Made by a program: the position numbers and the translations under genes. The notes under the pieces are model-generated. The model saw only the letters and a list, made by a program, of their open reading frames with translations, searched no databases and was not told the DNA's origin. This document shows positions 3,822-18,011 of a stretch of DNA of 20,137 nucleotides, piece after piece. Numbering within the stretch: position 1 is the stretch's first letter; every line of letters begins with the position of its first letter. The stretch comes from a virus, in IMG/VR virus record IMGVR_UViG_3300030406_000297, positions 1 to 20,137 of that record; one strand, 5' to 3'.

Positions 3822-4772
3822 TTATACTGACTGCCAACTTGTCCAAGTGCTACCAGTATTAGTACTATATCTTGTGTGTATAGCACCTGTAATACTTGTT
3901 GCTGTCTGAGTTATGTAAATACTACTTCCACCTGTATTTACTGTTCTTGATATTACGTGCCACCAATTAGAACCGCCTGGATTATTAGAAGGTTGGAATC
4001 CACTTGTGCCTTCAAATATACCTCTATTTTCAGATACATACGCTTCATCAAAATCTGTAAAAGGCACACCTTCTCTATTAACGCCACCATTTACTACAGC
4101 AACAGCATCACCTGCATTTGAACCGCCAGAAAAATGAGATGTTGTGCCAATAAACACATCGCCAGTAGAATCAATTCTCATTCTTTCTGTATTTGCAGTA
4201 CGAAATATCATATTAGCTGATTCACGTTGTATTAAATACATATCTGAACCAGATAAAGTAATAACAGAACCATCTGTTCCTGAACGACCTGTAGTATCAT
4301 TTACCATTACATAAGCTACAGATGTCAAAGAACCGCCATCTAAAACAACTTGTTTATTTGCCCATCCTGTTAATGTAGTACCACCAATACCAACATTTCC
4401 TACATCTCTATCTATAACTATTCTGTCATTCACGGTAGTTTGTGAACCTGATTTTAATCTTAATGTATTATCAGCACCATTAAGTTTTAATCTAAAACCA
4501 TAAACACCTGTTTGCCCAAAAGTATTTGTAGCACTAGCATAACTTGGTTGTTTTTCTATTAAATCTAAAGCTGCACCATCGGTAGGATTACTGTCGCTAT
4601 AATTAGCTACTTCTATTACAGGAAAAGTTGCAGATTGAACATTAAGTAATTGACTAGGATCTGATGTACCTATTCCAACTTTTTCTGCACTTGTTATAGT
4701 TATAGCAGTAGCATCAGAACTGTCTGATACGCCTGTGTTTAATAAATTTCTTGATACTTTTGTGATCGCCAT
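3822..4772 (-). CDS. Fiber-like protein with shared N-terminus and pyocin-knob-like C-terminus
   Basis: This 316-residue protein starts with the shared module: SDSSDATAITITSAEKVGIG lies at about 16-35, then SDPSQLLNV. Its middle has repeated fiber phrases, RIVIDRDVGNVGIGGTTLTG and RMRIDSTGDVFIGTTS, typical of long triple-stranded beta fibers. The last 76 residues (241-316) differ from the paralogs. They contain GIFEGTSGFQPSNNPGGSNW, then ITQTATSITGAIHTRYSTNT and GSTWTSWQSV, which resembles the pyocin-knob carbohydrate-binding domain found on fiber tips. The start overlaps the upstream stop as TAATG. It probably works with the S74-bearing fiber encoded just upstream, either as a separate fiber or as a distal part; the sequence alone does not decide this. 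Confidence 0.83.
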   Translation of the reverse strand: MAITKVSRNLLNTGVSDSSDATAITITSAEKVGIGTSDPSQLLNVQSATFPVIEVANYSDSNPTDGAALDLIEKQPSYASATNTFGQTGVYGFRLKLNGADNTLRLKSGSQTTVNDRIVIDRDVGNVGIGGTTLTGWANKQVVLDGGSLTSVAYVMVNDTTGRSGTDGSVITLSGSDMYLIQRESANMIFRTANTERMRIDSTGDVFIGTTSHFSGGSNAGDAVAVVNGGVNREGVPFTDFDEAYVSENRGIFEGTSGFQPSNNPGGSNWWHVISRTVNTGGSSIYITQTATSITGAIHTRYSTNTGSTWTSWQSV

Positions 4773-6970
4773 TACTCTATTTTACCTTCTAATTCTTCTA
4801 CTTTTGCTGATAGTTCTTGAATTGCTTTTATAAGTCTTGCTTCCCACCTTCCAAGAGTTGCAAGTGTTTTCATTCCGTCCGCTCTTTCTCCTACTAAGTC
4901 TGGATAAACTTCTTCTATTTCTTGAGCTATAAATCCTTCTTGGTGTCCGCCGCCTTCTTCTTCAATGTAGTCAAACTCACGTGGACGTAGAGCTTTTATT
5001 TTTTCTATTTGAGAAGGTAAGTCTGTAATATTTTCTTTTAACCTTCTATCAGAAAAACTGCCAAAAGCACATTGACCTGAGCCATTTGCATTAATTTGCC
5101 CAGAACCTGCATTGTATTGATTAATACCAAATCTTACAAAAACATTAGAAGTTGTATTGTCATTTGCAGTTTTAGCCGCTGCAAAAGCACAAGATGAAAG
5201 GTCGCTTCCTGTTGTCTGAAATCTTGCTACCCCAACATTATCGTTTTGAGAAGCAGTTTTTACATATAAACCACCAACAACGCCAGTTTCAGTCGTACCT
5301 ATCAGCAAACGACCAGAAGAATCAATTCTTGCTGCTTCTGTAAAACCGCCTTTAAAAAATCTTAAATCTTTTGTGTCGTTTTTAAATAAAATACCGCCAT
5401 CTAACTCAGCATCGTCATCACCAAAAGCTATACCAGCATTACCATCTGTAGCACCTATAACTTTTAAATAATTACTAGTAGTAGCATCTCTTACCACTAA
5501 TGGAAAATCAGGACTTGTATGACCAATACCAATATGGCCATCTGAATCCATAACTAATTTTTGATTTGAACCTACTGTAGAACCTGTGCCGATAACTAAA
5601 TCATCAGCTGAATCGTCTAAACCTATATGAAAATCTTGTGCGTTACCGTCAAATATCAAAGCTGTATCTTCTGCACCACCATCACCAATTGTTATTTTTG
5701 GTGTTGTCCCTTTCAAAGTCATAGCACTATTAGTTAGTGTTAATACTTCAGTACCAGCAATATCCATTCTAATGGTATCTTCATCAGAAGATTTTTCGAC
5801 CATAACTTTAGTATCACCATCTGCGTCTGATAACTGTATGGCGGAATTAATTTGTCCTACGGCTACAGATACTACTTCGATAGATACAGTATTAGCTGGT
5901 GCTTCAGAAAAAGTTAAAGTCGTACCACTTATACTGTAAGTTGCTTTTTCTTGATAAACACCACCAACAAAAACTTGCGTATTGTTTTCATTTGCTGGCG
6001 CTGCTGATAAGGTAAAAGTTGTATCAGATCCATCGCCAGTAAATTCATCTACTAAAATACTTGAGGCCGCTGCTGCTAAATCTGTAACAGTAAGTGTTAT
6101 AGCTTCTACTGCTACGCCAGTTGGTGGAGCTACACCAAAAGTTAAAGTTTCTCCAGAAATACTAAAACTATCTTTGTTTTGATAGACACCATCAAAATAA
6201 ACTTGTACTGCGTTTTCGCTTATTGGTGTAACACCTAATGCTAATGTTGTATCACTATTGTCCCCAGTCATAGTGGCCTTAACTACGTTGGCTCCCTGGA
6301 TATTATTTAGTGCAGAATAAACTGTAATTACTCTTCCATTTGCGGGAGCTGTAGCAAAAGTTAATGTAGTGCCAGATATTGAATAAACATTTTGTGCTTG
6401 AAAAACACCATCAATAAATACTAATAAATTATTCTCATCTGCGACTGCATTTGAAATGGTAAAGGTAGTATCACTACCGTCTCCTGTAAAAGTATTAGTA
6501 ACTAAAAAATTACCTACACCAATATCACCCCAAGCCGAACCAGAGTAACCTTCAAACTTTGAAGTTGTAGTATTAAATCTAAGATCACCAGCTGCTGGAG
6601 ATCCAGCTCTTTGCGCTGTAGTACCAGTTGGCACATTCAAAGCAGTATCGACTTCTCTTATGGTTTTACTAGCTGGCAGAGTACAAAATACATCTTTGGT
6701 TCCAGCTGAAAAATTAACAGCACTATCACTATTAGAACTACTTAGTATAGTTGTTCTTGATAGTGTATCTGGAGAAGCGTCAGTAACAGTACCTATACCT
6801 ACTTCAAACTCTGCTGTACCTTGGCCAGCAATACAATAATATGTTGTATTTGAATTACCTATACCAGCTACAAAAGTTTCAAAACCAGTAGCAGCACCAC
6901 CTAAGTTGATGGTGCCAGTACCAGTTGTAGTGGTAGTTTCTTTTACCCTATCGTTTAGGACAAGAGCCAT
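4772..6970 (-). CDS. Tail fiber with C-terminal peptidase-S74 intramolecular chaperone
   Basis: This is the largest complete protein here, at 732 residues. Residues 1-105 form the N-terminal part seen at the start of many marine phage fibers (MALVLNDRVKETTTTTGTGT), which probably anchors to the particle. Residues 118-150 hold AQRAGSPAAGDLRFNTTTSK. Three tandem repeats of about 65-75 residues follow near 158-220, 232-296 and 308-370, each built on FTGDGSDTTFTxS, a FxDGVYQ-type strand and YSISGTTLTF. Beta-fiber segments fill 375-630. The end (640-732) is a peptidase-S74 domain: SDRRLKENITD with the presumed cleavage serine at 640, then ALRPREFDYI, GFIAQEIEEVYPDLV and a terminal helix. This domain trimerises the fiber and then cuts itself off. 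GGAG precedes the ATG. Confidence 0.92.
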   Translation of the reverse strand: MALVLNDRVKETTTTTGTGTINLGGAATGFETFVAGIGNSNTTYYCIAGQGTAEFEVGIGTVTDASPDTLSRTTILSSSNSDSAVNFSAGTKDVFCTLPASKTIREVDTALNVPTGTTAQRAGSPAAGDLRFNTTTSKFEGYSGSAWGDIGVGNFLVTNTFTGDGSDTTFTISNAVADENNLLVFIDGVFQAQNVYSISGTTLTFATAPANGRVITVYSALNNIQGANVVKATMTGDNSDTTLALGVTPISENAVQVYFDGVYQNKDSFSISGETLTFGVAPPTGVAVEAITLTVTDLAAAASSILVDEFTGDGSDTTFTLSAAPANENNTQVFVGGVYQEKATYSISGTTLTFSEAPANTVSIEVVSVAVGQINSAIQLSDADGDTKVMVEKSSDEDTIRMDIAGTEVLTLTNSAMTLKGTTPKITIGDGGAEDTALIFDGNAQDFHIGLDDSADDLVIGTGSTVGSNQKLVMDSDGHIGIGHTSPDFPLVVRDATTSNYLKVIGATDGNAGIAFGDDDAELDGGILFKNDTKDLRFFKGGFTEAARIDSSGRLLIGTTETGVVGGLYVKTASQNDNVGVARFQTTGSDLSSCAFAAAKTANDNTTSNVFVRFGINQYNAGSGQINANGSGQCAFGSFSDRRLKENITDLPSQIEKIKALRPREFDYIEEEGGGHQEGFIAQEIEEVYPDLVGERADGMKTLATLGRWEARLIKAIQELSAKVEELEGKIE

Positions 6971-8458: not shown

Positions 8459-9133
8459 CTAAGTTGTTTGTGAACGTAGGGAGTCGTAACGGTATTCGTC
8501 TCTTCTTCCTCTACCTTCTGCTCTATTTTTTAGTCTTGAAATTTCTTCTTGGAATCTTCTTTCATATTGTTCTTGTAATTGTGCATCACCTTTCATAAAT
8601 AAATATGCTTCAGACAAACAAGCAAAAAGTAAACCATTTCTAGCATTTTGAGATAACCAAGTGCCAGTTGTACTAGAAACAAGTGATGCTGGTTTATAAA
8701 TATATTGTAATTCTACGGTGTAATTACTATCAGGTACTGGCGCTAAAACTAACGTAGAACCATTACTAGATGCAGTAGATAACTCTTTGTCATAATCTGC
8801 ATAATACAAAGGCTTACCTCTTAAAGAGCTATCTGTTGGATCTACAGTATATTCTTGCATGAAAGAAGAATGTTTTTTTTCTAAATATGTGTAATCTCCA
8901 CTACCATCGACAACTGCAAGATAGGTGCTCAAAATATAGTCTGAGGGCGCAGTTAAAAATCTATTACCAAGAGTTACATTACCTGAAACATTTTTTTTAA
9001 AAAAATCAAACTGAACTAATTCAAATATTCTTTCTTCTGCATTTTTAATAATGTCATCAAGGGTGCTGACAAAAGTAGTTTCATCATTCTCAACATAATT
9101 TTGTATCAAAGTTTTTAATTCAGTTAAGGTCAT
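8459..9133 (-). CDS. Head-tail adaptor protein (SU10-adaptor-like)
   Basis: This 224-residue protein starts MTLTELKTLIQNYVENDETT followed by DDIIKNAEERIFELVQFDFF, a helical N-terminus. A beta part (about 49-155) includes RFLTAPSDYILSTYLAVVDG and ELQYIYKPASLV. A C-terminal helical hairpin carries LLFACLSEAYLFMKGDAQLQ then EQYERRFQEEISRLKNRAEG. This layout matches the adaptor proteins that form a ring under the portal in podovirus-like phages; I associate it with the SU10-adaptor family. No Shine-Dalgarno is visible before the ATG, where the leader is only A and T apart from one G. An upstream ATTATA/TATAAT match on the minus strand sits too near the start to be a normal promoter. Together with 10501-11172 it probably closes the head. 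Confidence 0.83.
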   Translation of the reverse strand: MTLTELKTLIQNYVENDETTFVSTLDDIIKNAEERIFELVQFDFFKKNVSGNVTLGNRFLTAPSDYILSTYLAVVDGSGDYTYLEKKHSSFMQEYTVDPTDSSLRGKPLYYADYDKELSTASSNGSTLVLAPVPDSNYTVELQYIYKPASLVSSTTGTWLSQNARNGLLFACLSEAYLFMKGDAQLQEQYERRFQEEISRLKNRAEGRGRRDEYRYDSLRSQTT

Positions 9134-9149
9134 AATTTATTATATCAAA

Positions 9150-9944
9150 TTAAGGAGTATTTGCTTGTCCACCCATACCTGAGTGATTTGTACAATAGTA
9201 ATAAAGTGTTGGCGCACCTACGGCTACAGTTATTTGAGTGTAAGCACCTGAGCTACCAGGAGTACCATTGGTTGTTACGCCAGTTGTATATTCACTTCCA
9301 CCGCCATGAGTGCCGTTGGCAGTAGTAGAAAATCTTAATGGGTGCCCACCATTAGAAGAATCAGACTGATCAAATCTATAAGTCTCGCCTTCAGATAAGT
9401 TCAAAGTAGGACTTACTGAGCCATTTATATAATATTTATTACCGTAACCATACGAGTTAGTACCAGAAGCAACTGTTACTGTGTAAACAGTATCAGCACT
9501 AACAGTAGGACTACCTATGGCAGAAGTACCAGCTTGTCCACTTACTGAAACACTTTCAGTTATGTTCCCAGATACAGTAATAGAACCTAAAGCAGAGGTA
9601 ACAGCTTGAGAATCTAATGTTTGAGTTACAGTATTATCATTTTCTATAATACTGACAGAACCAACAGATGTATTACTTATTAATCCAAGTATTGTCCTAC
9701 CAACTAAATCGTTGTTAGTTGAAACTCTGCCATTACCAACCTCTAAATCTGTATCTGGTCTAGCCTCGTACAAAGCCTCGGGATCTATTATATTTCTTGT
9801 AGTTTCTAGTTGTGGGTGTTTTTCTTCATAACAAGAAGGACAAGTTTTTGCACCATTCCATTCTTTTCTTAAATCTTTATATTTGTATTTAAAACCACAT
9901 CTATCACATAAAGCGTATGCAAATTTGCCACTAGCATAAGCCAT
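9150..9944 (-). CDS. Zinc-ribbon / beta-repeat / cupredoxin-like fusion protein
   Basis: This 264-residue protein has three parts. Residues 13-38 form a CxxC-18-CxxC zinc ribbon (C13, C16, C35, C38). Residues 90-150 carry TSALG-type beta repeats like those of the protein at 466-1356. Residues 152-264 resemble a cupredoxin: YTVTVASGTNSYGYGNKYYI, then GGHPLRFSTT with H201 and a closing LYYYCTNHSGMGG with C251, H254 and M257. The His-Cys-His-Met set is the usual ligand group of a type 1 copper site, though the spacing C-x2-H-x2-M is shorter than in plastocyanin. There is no signal peptide. The start overlaps the upstream stop as TAATG. It lies between the two adaptor genes, so a head-neck or tail structural role is likely. 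Copper binding is inferred, not shown. Confidence 0.8.
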   Translation of the reverse strand: MAYASGKFAYALCDRCGFKYKYKDLRKEWNGAKTCPSCYEEKHPQLETTRNIIDPEALYEARPDTDLEVGNGRVSTNNDLVGRTILGLISNTSVGSVSIIENDNTVTQTLDSQAVTSALGSITVSGNITESVSVSGQAGTSAIGSPTVSADTVYTVTVASGTNSYGYGNKYYINGSVSPTLNLSEGETYRFDQSDSSNGGHPLRFSTTANGTHGGGSEYTTGVTTNGTPGSSGAYTQITVAVGAPTLYYYCTNHSGMGGQANTP

Positions 9945-10222
9945 TAGACTTTCCTCGTTTTTCTAATATCTTCTTTGCCTTTTTTAAATATATTTACAAC
10001 TTGGTTCTTACCCATAACTTTAGCTCTTTGTTCACCAACTGTTAATATTTGTATTTTTCTTGCAAATGGCTTATTGATTTTTTTTACTTTTGCAACAGTA
10101 GCTCTTGCATCTTTTGGGGTCGCAAATTTAATTTTTACGGTATCTTTAGGATTTTCATCCGTATATAAACGTCTGCCAGATCCTTTTGGTTTTTTTCCCG
10201 TTCCTTTTTTTGGGTCAGTCAT
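9944..10222 (-). CDS. Small basic conserved phage protein, KPKGSGRRLYTDENP type
   Basis: This 92-residue, strongly basic protein opens with KKGTGKKPKGSGRRLYTDEN (about 5-24). KDTVKIKFATPKDARATVAK and a C-terminal ARKIQILTVGEQRAKVMGKN follow. I recognise this order from small marine-phage proteins that have been grouped with DUF5872, but I cannot verify the assignment. Lysine and arginine make up about a third of it, so binding to DNA or to acidic proteins is possible. It starts inside the last codons of the gene at 10215-10400 and its stop overlaps the next start as TAATG. Only a weak AGAAA stretch precedes the ATG, so translation may depend on coupling. Its function is unknown. Confidence 0.78.
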   Translation of the reverse strand: MTDPKKGTGKKPKGSGRRLYTDENPKDTVKIKFATPKDARATVAKVKKINKPFARKIQILTVGEQRAKVMGKNQVVNIFKKGKEDIRKTRKV

Positions 10223-10400
10223 TTTTTCTAGGCCCGTTACCTTTGTTATTGCCAGAGTCGTACTCAGTTAAAGCTTTATAATACTTTCTAGTTTCTATAG
10301 AAACTTTATACCAAAAAATATTCATACCTCTAGGATTTGAATTTTCACCTATCATAACAATAATGCAAAAAAATAAAATTATAAATAAAAGAAAATCCAT
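10215..10400 (-). CDS. Small single-span membrane protein
   Basis: This 61-residue protein starts with a hydrophobic segment, FLLFIILFFCIIVMIG (3-18), long enough for one membrane helix. A soluble tail follows, rich in Tyr, Lys and Asn, with KVSIETRKYYKALTEYDSGN at about 32-51. I do not recognise the family. Small membrane proteins in phage late operons are sometimes holins, but holins more often have two or three spans, and no lysis gene is visible nearby. It begins two bases after the small gene at 10403-10501 ends and overlaps the next gene by eight bases, as expected of a real gene in a tight operon. The frame's existence is moderately supported; the function is open. Confidence 0.6.
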   Translation of the reverse strand: MDFLLFIILFFCIIVMIGENSNPRGMNIFWYKVSIETRKYYKALTEYDSGNNKGNGPRKND

Positions 10401-10402
10401 TT

Positions 10403-10501
10403 TTAAATATTACATAGTAGTTGTTGTTGCTTGATAAGCTCTTCAAGTTCAACAAAATTTATCTGTTGTACTTGTTGAGGGCGACTTTCTGAAAAGCCCA
10501 T
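10403..10501 (-). CDS. Very small protein (32 residues), TAATG-coupled to connector gene
   Basis: The frame begins at the ATG at 10501, whose first base is also the last base of the upstream connector's TAA stop (TAATG). AGAGGTG lies about five bases before that ATG, a good ribosome-binding site. The product starts MGFSESRPQQVQQINFVELE and ends in a Gln/Leu-rich helix, EELIKQQQLLCNI. It stops at 10403, two bases before the next start at 10400. Fitting exactly between two genes with coupled ends and a ribosome-binding site supports it as real. I do not know its function. Confidence 0.65.
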   Translation of the reverse strand: MGFSESRPQQVQQINFVELEELIKQQQLLCNI

Positions 10502-11172
10502 TAAACACCTCTTAAATGTGGCCTTATCCTAAAACTAGCTCTATCTTCGTCCTGGTCAGCAGCCCTTCTAAATTCCTCTTCATAAATTGCTTTTAGTTCT
10601 GCTGTTCTTTGTGGAGCTCTTTTTATGCTTATGTAATAAGCAAGACCAGCTGCAAAACAAGGGTAAAATCTAAAAGGTAAATCCATAGTATTAGTTGCAG
10701 TATCAGCATCATCCATTCTAACTAATTTATTAAAAACCAATATGTCTGTGGAATTTTCAGGCGTTGGATAAATTTTAATAGCTGGAGTTGTTTGTTTATC
10801 AAAAAAGAATTGATTAGGTCTAGCCTTTGTATCTTTGTTTGGAATATTTAAATACTCGCTTCTGCTGATTCTACTCATATTGGTGTCTGTATTTACAGAG
10901 TTAGTTGTTCTTCTAACAACCATATCCAATATATCAATTACATTAGTATTTAAACTATAACTATTTGTACCTTCCGTTACTGTTTGAGTAGTTTGCTCAA
11001 TAGTCCATTGATTCAAACCTCTGTTAGCCCATTCAGCTAACATAATGTTTATGGATCTTTTGGCGGTTTTTAAATCATAACCAGTCCTAAGTTCAATACC
11101 ACATCTTTCAAAAGCTTCTTCTATAAACTCTGTAACATTTGGTTCAAAATTTGTACTGCCTGATAACGCCAT
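10501..11172 (-). CDS. Head-to-tail connector / gp4-like adaptor protein
   Basis: This 223-residue protein has an N-terminal helical part, NFEPNVTEFIEEAFERCGIE, then LRTGYDLKTAKRSINIMLAE followed by WANRGLNQWTIEQTTQTVTE. These are features of the connector proteins of P22-like and related podoviruses (gp4 or tail-tubular-A type). The middle is beta-rich (SYSLNTNVIDILDMVVRRTT), and FRFYPCFAAGLAYYISIKRA with AELKAIYEEEFRRAADQDED form a C-terminal helical hairpin. A similar hairpin is visible in the protein at 8459-9133, so the two may be distant homologs forming successive rings. Start and stop both overlap neighbours as TAATG. It is expected to bind the portal after DNA packaging and receive the tail. 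Confidence 0.85.
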   Translation of the reverse strand: MALSGSTNFEPNVTEFIEEAFERCGIELRTGYDLKTAKRSINIMLAEWANRGLNQWTIEQTTQTVTEGTNSYSLNTNVIDILDMVVRRTTNSVNTDTNMSRISRSEYLNIPNKDTKARPNQFFFDKQTTPAIKIYPTPENSTDILVFNKLVRMDDADTATNTMDLPFRFYPCFAAGLAYYISIKRAPQRTAELKAIYEEEFRRAADQDEDRASFRIRPHLRGV

Positions 11173-11846
11173 TAATCTTCATATAAGTTATTAAAAGTTA
11201 TTGCAGGATCTAAGTAACTTTCGTGTCCTTCAGCAGAATGTGTCCATTGTGAAGGTTTAAAGTCAGGAGCACCATCTCCTGTTACCCAAAGAGCTGGACT
11301 TGTAGCCCTTACTCTATTGTTTGGTAAGGCTACTAAGTTACCTTTCCATTTACAATCTTCTGTTATATATAATACATGAGATTGTTTATGTTGTGCACTA
11401 TCGTCAGCAATATCGGAGTCAGTATAATCAACAGTAAACAAATATCTGCCTTTAAAAAATTCGCCATCTAATTTACAAAGCCAAGGTGATGAGCTTACTC
11501 TATCCATAACTATTACTGAATGGTTTCTAGATTCACAATCCCAAGGTTGTGCAATATGATCTTCCATCGGTTCAGGAAAATCATCCATAGGAATATCAGC
11601 CACTAAAGCTTGGATAGGCATTCTAGCCCACATAGCTCCGCCATGGATATTTGGCTCGTTGTTATCTTCACAATCTGACTCACAACCCGTAAAGACTACT
11701 TGAAAACTCAAAGACCTATCAGGAATAGTATTAACTGCAATTACTAAAGCATGTAAATACTCGTCATGGTATTTTTCGTGATTGTGAGTAAATTCCCTTC
11801 TTACCCAACATTTAAAATGTGGGACATTACTAAGTAAGTATGACAT
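11172..11846 (-). CDS. Conserved marine-phage protein of unknown function (VPHFKCWVRREF type)
   Basis: This 224-residue protein starts MSYLLSNVPHFKCWVRREFT and is rich in Trp, His and Asp. Its distinctive segments are HEKYHDEYLHALVIAVNTIP, SLSFQVVFTG and GGAMWARMPIQALV. It also carries IAQPWDCESRNHSVIVMD and then FFKGRYLFTVDYTDSDIADD followed by ALPNNRVRATSPALW. I recognise this order from a family that recurs beside connector genes in marine phages, always annotated as hypothetical. The many His and Asp residues would allow metal binding, but no known catalytic pattern is clear. No Shine-Dalgarno is seen before the ATG; the leader is AT-rich. Its stop overlaps the connector's start as TAATG, suggesting co-translation with head completion. 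Its role is unknown. Confidence 0.82.
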   Translation of the reverse strand: MSYLLSNVPHFKCWVRREFTHNHEKYHDEYLHALVIAVNTIPDRSLSFQVVFTGCESDCEDNNEPNIHGGAMWARMPIQALVADIPMDDFPEPMEDHIAQPWDCESRNHSVIVMDRVSSSPWLCKLDGEFFKGRYLFTVDYTDSDIADDSAQHKQSHVLYITEDCKWKGNLVALPNNRVRATSPALWVTGDGAPDFKPSQWTHSAEGHESYLDPAITFNNLYED

Positions 11847-11875: not shown

Positions 11876-12148
11876 TTATTTCTTTTTACTGTTTAGATTT
11901 AAAGCTCCGCCCTTAGATTTTTTCATCATAGAACCCCCTTTTGATTTCTTCATTAAAGAACCACCTTTTGATTTCTTTAATATAGAACCACCTTTAGATC
12001 TCTTCATCATAGATCCGCCTTTTGATTTTTTCATCATGGCTCCGCCCTTAGACTTCTTCATTAAGGCTCCGCCCTTAGACTTCTTCATTAAAGCTCCGCC
12101 TTTGGACATCTTTCTTACGCTATAGCCTTTAGTTTTCTTATAAGTCAT
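11876..12148 (-). CDS. Lysine-rich nonapeptide-repeat protein
   Basis: This 90-residue protein is nearly all repeat. After a 14-residue lead (MTYKKTKGYSVRKM) come eight consecutive nonapeptides of the form SKGGxxxKK (15-86), then SKKK. Lysines occur at fixed spacing and would give a strongly positive, probably unstructured chain. Candidate roles are nucleic-acid binding, contact with an acidic partner such as the scaffold, or packaging with the genome; none is shown. A GAGGT ribosome-binding site precedes the ATG. It is the last of four small basic genes in a row. I recall similar KKSKGG-repeat proteins from marine phages without known function. The long plus-strand frame opposite it is produced by the repeat and is not a gene. 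Confidence 0.75.
   Translation of the reverse strand: MTYKKTKGYSVRKMSKGGALMKKSKGGALMKKSKGGAMMKKSKGGSMMKRSKGGSILKKSKGGSLMKKSKGGSMMKKSKGGALNLNSKKK
11891..12106 (-). repeat. 27-bp tandem repeat, eight units, in frame
   Basis: These 216 bases consist of eight direct units of 27 bases, each encoding SKGGxxxKK or a close variant. Units differ mainly at third positions and at the two or three variable residues (AL, AM, SM, SI, SL). The unit length is a multiple of three, so gain or loss of units keeps the frame. Confidence 0.88.
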
Positions 12149-14126: not shown

Positions 14127-14543
14127 TTATACGGCTTGGTCATGTTCAATAGGTAATTTTTCTGTAGCTTCTAAAACTGACTTATGTGCCTCATATAATT
14201 TTTCGTAAGCTTCTTTTGTTAAATTATTTTTACCATAAGTTTTTATTAGATCTTCACCAATCATTTCTATCAAACATCTTGTTGTAACTAATCTGCCTCT
14301 TATATCTTCGCTTTTTTCTTTGTCGGTCATAATTTTAAATTGTTTCACTTGTCTAATTTCGTACTCTCTTGAGTTTCTAATATTAATTAATTTTTTTTCT
14401 AATTCAGTATAACTGCCCCAATCTCTTATTTCTGCGACAGTTCTCCCACAACCTTTGCATACATCATCAAATGGTATTACAGAGGTGGTACATCTACCCA
14501 CACATGGGGTTTCAGATAAATTATTTGGTTTGTGTAACCACAT
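14127..14543 (-). CDS. DUF1289-type cysteine protein
   Basis: This 138-residue protein has an N-terminal motif TPCVGRCTTSVIPFDDVCKG and then CGRTVAEIRDWGSYTELEKK, with cysteines at 14, 18, 29 and 32. That spacing and the CGRT-xxEIxDW follow-up match DUF1289, a small family proposed to bind an iron-sulfur cluster or metal. The remainder (50-138) is charged and helical and is longer than in typical short DUF1289 proteins. The start is fixed close to the cysteine motif, and the ATG at 14543 lies only four bases past the terminator's T run. No Shine-Dalgarno is therefore available; the region before the ATG is the hairpin itself. It is unusual among structural genes. Its function in the phage is unknown. 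Confidence 0.82.
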   Translation of the reverse strand: MWLHKPNNLSETPCVGRCTTSVIPFDDVCKGCGRTVAEIRDWGSYTELEKKLINIRNSREYEIRQVKQFKIMTDKEKSEDIRGRLVTTRCLIEMIGEDLIKTYGKNNLTKEAYEKLYEAHKSVLEATEKLPIEHDQAV

Positions 14544-17519: not shown

Positions 17520-18011
17520 CTATACAGCAACTATGTCGTCTGGATCTTTTATAGTAGCTAACACTTCATCATCGTTTATCAATCTACATTCGGCTTCATC
17601 ACCCAATTTAAAACGACACCCAGCGTATCTACCTATTAATACCCATTGTTTTTCTTGGCACCAAGCGGTACCCCCAAATTTAGATTCATCCTTATAACAA
17701 AGAGGCCCCATTTTAACTACATAAGCACATACAGAAGCCAATGACTCTCTTTCTACGTGTTGTTGTGTTAACAATATGCCTCCTTCAGATACACCTTTAC
17801 CTTTATAAGGCAAGACTAGAATCCTATACCCTGAAGGTTGTGGCATTCTATCTAATAAAGATGATTCTAATAAAGTTGGATCTAAAACTCTTTTGCTTTC
17901 TTCAACATAAGCTTTATCAGCTTCTGTTTCTTCAGACTGTTCTTCTTTTTGAGATTCTTCTATTTCTTTGGCTATGTGGTTAGGGACTACCACCTTGTTC
18001 TGGCTCTTCAT
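17520..18011 (-). CDS. GroES-like co-chaperonin with acidic N-terminal extension
   Basis: This 163-residue protein has a Cpn10 domain at about 56-163, compared with roughly 95 residues for bacterial GroES. MPQPSGYRILVLPYKGKGVS corresponds to the first strands, and GGILL (77-81) sits where GroES has the GGIVL mobile-loop tripeptide that contacts GroEL. ASVCAYVVKMGPL, WVLIGRYAGCRFKLGDEAE and DDEVLATIKDPDDI follow in the expected order. Residues 1-55 form an extra acidic, helical extension. T4 gp31 shows how a phage co-chaperonin works with host GroEL to fold the capsid protein; a similar role fits the position upstream of scaffold and capsid. The start is an ATG with AGGA about seven bases before; it overlaps the previous gene by 32 bases. 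A GTG at 17993 is an alternative. Confidence 0.85.
   Translation of the reverse strand: MKSQNKVVVPNHIAKEIEESQKEEQSEETEADKAYVEESKRVLDPTLLESSLLDRMPQPSGYRILVLPYKGKGVSEGGILLTQQHVERESLASVCAYVVKMGPLCYKDESKFGGTAWCQEKQWVLIGRYAGCRFKLGDEAECRLINDDEVLATIKDPDDIVAV

Follow-up and report, generated by a model that had tools for sequence, protein, structure and literature searches.

Whether a phage particle may carry a copper site of the blue-copper kind is the question raised by a gene at positions 9150–9944 of the window, the whole stretch of 20,137 nucleotides of viral record IMGVR_UViG_3300030406_000297 that was analyzed. The first-pass annotation described its product as a zinc ribbon, beta repeats, and a cupredoxin-like domain joined in one virion-module protein, with H201, C251, H254, and M257 as candidate type-1 copper ligands, and offered as an alternative that the fold had been reused for structure without metal. 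The gene runs on the minus strand from the ATG at 9944 to the stop at 9150, and translation of this open reading frame places C13, C16, C35, C38, H201, C251, H254, and M257 exactly where they had been assigned. The gene, its parts, and its neighbors are the following:

9150–9944, minus strand: whole gene, 264 amino acids, with Cys4 module, beta repeat, and cupredoxin-like domain (open reading frame; same-architecture homologs in many viral contigs)
9747–9944, minus strand: N-terminal module, residues 1–66, with two CxxC knuckles (Cys counts among relatives; ribbon models below cut-off)
9906–9908, 9897–9899, 9840–9842, and 9831–9833, minus strand: C13, C16, C35, and C38 of this module, spaced C13-x2-C16 and C35-x2-C38
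9486–9746, minus strand: linker with beta repeat, residues 67–153 (low confidence in the full-length model; repeat like that of the open reading frame 466–1356)
9153–9485, minus strand: cupredoxin-like domain, residues 154–264, 111 residues (AlphaFold2 model, Foldseek, hhalign)
9342–9344, minus strand: H201, first predicted copper ligand, followed by Pro (kept and lost jointly with C251 and H254)
9192–9194, minus strand: C251, predicted copper thiolate ligand and only Cys of the domain
9183–9185, minus strand: H254, predicted copper ligand (conservation counts and tree)
9174–9176, minus strand: M257, predicted axial ligand (conserved spacing to C251 and H254)
8459–9133, minus strand: SU10-type adaptor gene, downstream neighbor (SU10_adaptor PF24175, E 1e-23; matches the second adaptor of phage 023Pt_psg01)
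10501–11172, minus strand: SU10-type adaptor gene, upstream neighbor (SU10_adaptor PF24175, E 1.2e-13)
9944–10222 and 10215–10400: two small open reading frames between the gene and the upstream adaptor

The position between two adaptor genes, also claimed at first, is borne out by the Pfam matches of both neighbors, with the two small open reading frames intervening on the upstream side. The rest of the surrounding module comprises portal, major head protein, and fibre-like genes. Such a context, together with the names under which carriers of the domain have been deposited (an example is the 'virion structural protein' of S-TIM5), suggests that the 264-residue protein is a virion protein of this phage. 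In the tail of SU10, the long fibres are borne by the adaptor ring (PMC9509320); a surface location for a protein of the adaptor region is on that account plausible and nothing firmer. Several other minus-strand products of the window were noted in passing. Directly downstream of the major head gene lies a DUF1289 protein with a Cys cluster (14127–14543, Pfam E 2.8e-12). The product of 11172–11846 bears the PHROGs name 'ferredoxin' (phrog_3704, E 1.6e-26), which seems doubtful, and it has no Pfam match. A GroES-type co-chaperonin is encoded at 17520–18011, a fibre-like protein with a C-terminal Peptidase_S74 self-cleaving chaperone at 4772–6970, and a 90-residue protein with Lys/Gly-rich repeats of the MKKSKGG type at 11876–12148.

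The three parts of the protein differ in how clearly they can be described, and the full-length model gives no reliable arrangement of them (pLDDT 73.3, pTM 0.47). The beta repeat, at about residues 112–150, resembles the repeat protein encoded at 466–1356 (BLASTP E 5e-6). The four cysteines proposed as a zinc ribbon are present, and Pfam and NCBIfam ribbon models match the N-terminal module below their cut-offs. The cysteines are optional in the family: among 138 distinct N-terminal modules, 63 keep all four, 55 have none, and 18 have only C13. Judged by these sequences, the module is of secondary importance, as it persists in many relatives without a metal. It also occurs without the cupredoxin domain, in proteins of phages DSL-LC04 and CRP-901.

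The C-terminal domain is predicted far more clearly. An AlphaFold2 model of residues 154–264, computed from an alignment of 83 domains, reaches a pLDDT of 95.6 and a pTM of 0.88 and contains eight strands of at least three residues (DSSP), in agreement with the Greek-key beta-sandwich of 7–8 strands of the cupredoxin fold. In this model, C251 stands at the end of a strand, H254 and M257 in the loop that follows, and H201 just before another strand; this is the predicted placement of the four residues as in cupredoxins. Foldseek comparison with the PDB returns copper nitrite reductase, rusticyanin, McoA, CotA, CueO, and amicyanin as best matches, nearly all of the best being copper cupredoxins, at moderate similarity (best E 4e-4, TM about 0.5). 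A comparison independent of the fold model, by hhalign against plastocyanin-type proteins drawn from marine bacterial genomes, gives a probability of 92 and an E of 5.4e-7, with C251 and H254 falling on the ligand Cys and His. The best PDB sequence match of the profile is plastocyanin, not significant alone (E 0.46), with H201, C251, and H254 on its ligands; a single-sequence search of the PDB with the 264-residue protein found no match. Taken by its model, the segment 154–264 is a cupredoxin-fold domain. The first reading of the domain as cupredoxin-like is thus supported, since the confident model matches copper proteins and the four residues H, C, H, and M are retained jointly among the homologs. 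Among BFVD models, small 'beta-sandwich proteins' of Pithovirus and Marseillevirus relatives (A0A481Z6J5, A0A481Z7Q7, A0A481YVH3) were also retrieved, at 21–25% identity to the domain model.

The type-1 order, H...C-x2-H-xn-M with the first His before a strand, the Cys at a strand end, and the second His and the Met in the next loop, is found in the sequence, the DSSP assignment, and the hhalign comparison alike. Plastocyanin and azurin (PF00127), amicyanin, and rusticyanin share with the phage domain the predicted fold and the ligand order H...C-x2-H-x2-M, and the profile alignment superposes the ligands. The observation that the final spacing is tighter than in plastocyanin or azurin is correct; C-x2-H-x2-M equals the ligand-loop length of amicyanin, and the spacing is therefore a known type-1 variant. 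The phage domain differs from these proteins in having Pro after the first His, where Asn is usual, and in its fusion to virion or surface proteins, whereas they are free electron carriers. The PF00127 model Copper-bind gives no match to the 264-residue protein and its curated cut-off is not reached; five of 83 members match it weakly (best E 0.026), and a SAR86 relative scores 13.8 bits against the cut-off of 21.2. Among the best fold matches are cupredoxin domains of multicopper oxidases and of copper nitrite reductases (CueO, CotA, McoA, 2dv6), and His-Pro stands at the first type-1 ligand of multicopper oxidases as it does here. Compared with these enzymes, the phage domain would have a single mononuclear site, without a trinuclear or type-2 center and without a catalytic partner domain.

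The conservation of the ligands was followed in 363 distinct homologous domains, collected by an iterated HMM over fetched loci. All four ligands are present in 312 of them and none in 42; six keep only the Met, and three have other partial sets, one each with C251 and H254 only, with all but the Met, and with H201 and the Met only. The core H/C/H is broken in only two of the 363. The spacing C-x2-H-x2-M holds in 311 of the 312 intact domains, the remaining one having C-x2-H-x3-M, and the Met is retained in 312 of the 314 domains that have C251 and H254. Some of the scans used peptides overlying the ligands, hence a separate count was made on the 198 distinct domains free of any such peptide, and 147 of these have all four ligands intact. 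The domains of bacterial genome contigs are intact in every case (41/41), although for many of them the search peptide itself spanned the Cys loop. In a tree computed from 67 representatives with the ligand columns left out, the state switches between intact and lost three times. With 312 domains intact and 42 without any ligand, the site is retained or lost as a whole; such conservation is far beyond chance, and the pattern looks like the behavior of a functional metal site. On the invariance that the first-pass annotation had asked about, the four residues are kept together in most homologs and absent together from a minority. Reuse of the fold without metal does take place in the family, in these 42 domains, but not in the 264-residue protein, whose ligands are intact.

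The ligand-free domains lie mostly in cyanophage baseplate proteins. In the gp7-type baseplate protein of S-CAM22 (locus L088) and relatives among L170–L249, a second cupredoxin-like domain of the same protein is missing H, C, and H jointly, and a copy next to it retains all four ligands, a natural apo control. A disulfide role for C251 was considered separately and rejected: C251 is the sole Cys of the domain in 306 of the 312 intact domains, which rules out an internal disulfide.

The domain is present in 380 of the 50,697 phage records searched, and by name the carriers are cyanophages, Pelagibacter, Methylophilales, marine, or seawater phages, save one uncultured record. In these phages, it is part of tail fibres, gp9-type fibre connectors, gp7-type baseplate proteins, adaptors, and structural proteins. 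S-TIM5, P-SSM2, S-CAM22, and Pelagibacter phage Baldr are carriers available in culture. PHROGs 30742, 27200, 693, 708, and 6005 contain it within longer virion proteins; they are named for tail fibre, baseplate wedge, and virion structural proteins, one being of unknown function, and these are context names that carry no record of a fold or a metal. In phage 023Pt_psg01, the genes follow the same order of adaptor, N-terminal-module protein, and adaptor. There, the domain is fused to the N terminus of the first adaptor, the homolog of the window's 10501–11172 product, and the neighboring N-terminal-module protein lacks it. Compared with the window, this arrangement indicates that the domain moves between neighboring genes and is a mobile surface module.

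Bacterial genomes encode the domain in lipoprotein-like SAR86 and Actinomarina proteins (loci L363:5836-6336, L364:5833-6363, and L354:5365-6276), in Prochlorococcus proteins, and in very large Bacteroidetes proteins, whose contigs reach up to 1 Mb. Open reading frames of more than 3800 residues containing it are found on large genome contigs of Bacteroidetes and Flavobacteriaceae (loci L342, L346, and L347), and each of the two SAR86 loci has, directly downstream, a gene for an uncharacterised protein of about 1000 residues. Other bacterial-genome loci clearly belong to phage contigs; among them are some that bear the N-terminal module seen here and some that bear a T7 tail-fibre N terminus. 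Library profile searches found no Pfam or NCBIfam family that covers the domain, and no description of a cupredoxin or blue copper protein in phage tails was found in the openly licensed literature. The family is large and unannotated, and it occurs both in phages of the sea and on the surfaces of ocean bacteria.

The explanation that we hold to be probable is that the domain is a cupredoxin with a type-1-like mononuclear copper site, a mobile module of virion and secreted proteins that is stabilized by copper and serves decoration or host-surface contact. The site would consist of H201, C251, H254, and the axial M257 on a loop of amicyanin length. Marine phages append this module to tail, baseplate, and adaptor-region proteins, and marine bacteria to secreted proteins. 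The copper would most likely come from the host envelope, the lysate, or seawater; by locking the Cys, the two His, and the Met together, it would give a stable displayed beta-sandwich, which may then decorate the particle or touch the host surface. Copper as the metal, a place in this virion, and display or contact as the role are what we infer.

Other uses of the fold and of the site have to be weighed against a copper-stabilized display module, and they are not all mutually exclusive, as redox use and docking both presuppose a metal site. It is rather improbable that the cupredoxin fold has been reused as a structural or carbohydrate-binding beta-sandwich in which H, C, H, and M are kept for packing and not for metal. 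The 42 ligand-free copies among the 363 domains, mostly in cyanophage baseplate proteins, speak for such reuse insofar as they belong to the same family, but they also show that the fold does not need the ligands. Moreover, the three core ligands go together when the site decays, and packing hardly accounts for the lone Cys of an exposed protein with two His and a Met in exact type-1 order. Carbohydrate binding draws on contexts of surface display and on weak CBM_4_9 matches; as these matches are sub-threshold only, we rejected a carbohydrate-binding module as the leading interpretation. That the intact ligand set instead holds another soft or transition metal, such as Zn, as a purely structural ion has little probability. 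Ligand sets of this Cys/His/His/Met kind also take Zn in vitro, and a zinc-ribbon-type Cys4 module is joined to the domain in this protein, but Cys/His/His with Met in cupredoxin order is the copper arrangement, and Met, a poor zinc ligand, is present wherever C251 and H254 are, with two exceptions.

A redox-active site, used for electron transfer or as a redox trigger in infection, is unlikely. The complete type-1 ligand set including the axial Met favors it, as type-1 copper sites usually carry electrons, and one Actinomarina relative adjoins an FAD/NAD oxidoreductase gene. The phage carriers, however, are adaptor-region, fibre, and baseplate proteins, and no conserved redox partner was found beside the cellular relatives, the SAR86 neighbors being a short-chain dehydrogenase, an uncharacterised protein, and an abhydrolase. 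Bound copper may also be imagined to serve docking through host copper-uptake receptors, by analogy with the Trojan-horse idea for iron, which we regard as quite improbable. Type-1 sites hold copper tightly and are mostly buried, we know of no copper receptor for such a role, and in the window the domain lies in the adaptor region and not in a recognised fibre; its presence in tail fibres and gp9-type fibre connectors of other phages is the point in favor. HxH motifs in phage tail fibres (T4 gp37, alterophage R22Y) bind iron and have been proposed to act in this manner, with relevance for marine systems (PMC11705849). The likeness to the phage domain is a metal carried, putatively here, by a phage tail protein; the fibres use repeated His pairs and octahedral iron, whereas the domain would use Cys/His/His/Met of a single chain, so that these iron sites, although the closest concept, share neither sequence nor structure with it.

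A copper-stabilized display module would have consequences beyond this phage. Given the spread of the domain in hundreds of marine phages, many virus particles of the sea may carry a copper site. A bolder claim, that marine tailed phages, including many T4-like cyanophages, bear working type-1 copper centers on their particles, on a module that secreted proteins of marine bacteria also contain, and that these centers serve infection as a redox trigger or in copper-dependent host docking, is doubtful. The copper reading is easily testable on the 111-residue unit, as cultured cyanophages and pelagiphages carry the domain and natural ligand-free relatives exist. Should the domain bind copper, virus particles of a very common oceanic class would count as copper proteins, and copper would enter both the discussion of phage-tail metals, which has so far concerned iron, and the trace-metal chemistry of the sea.
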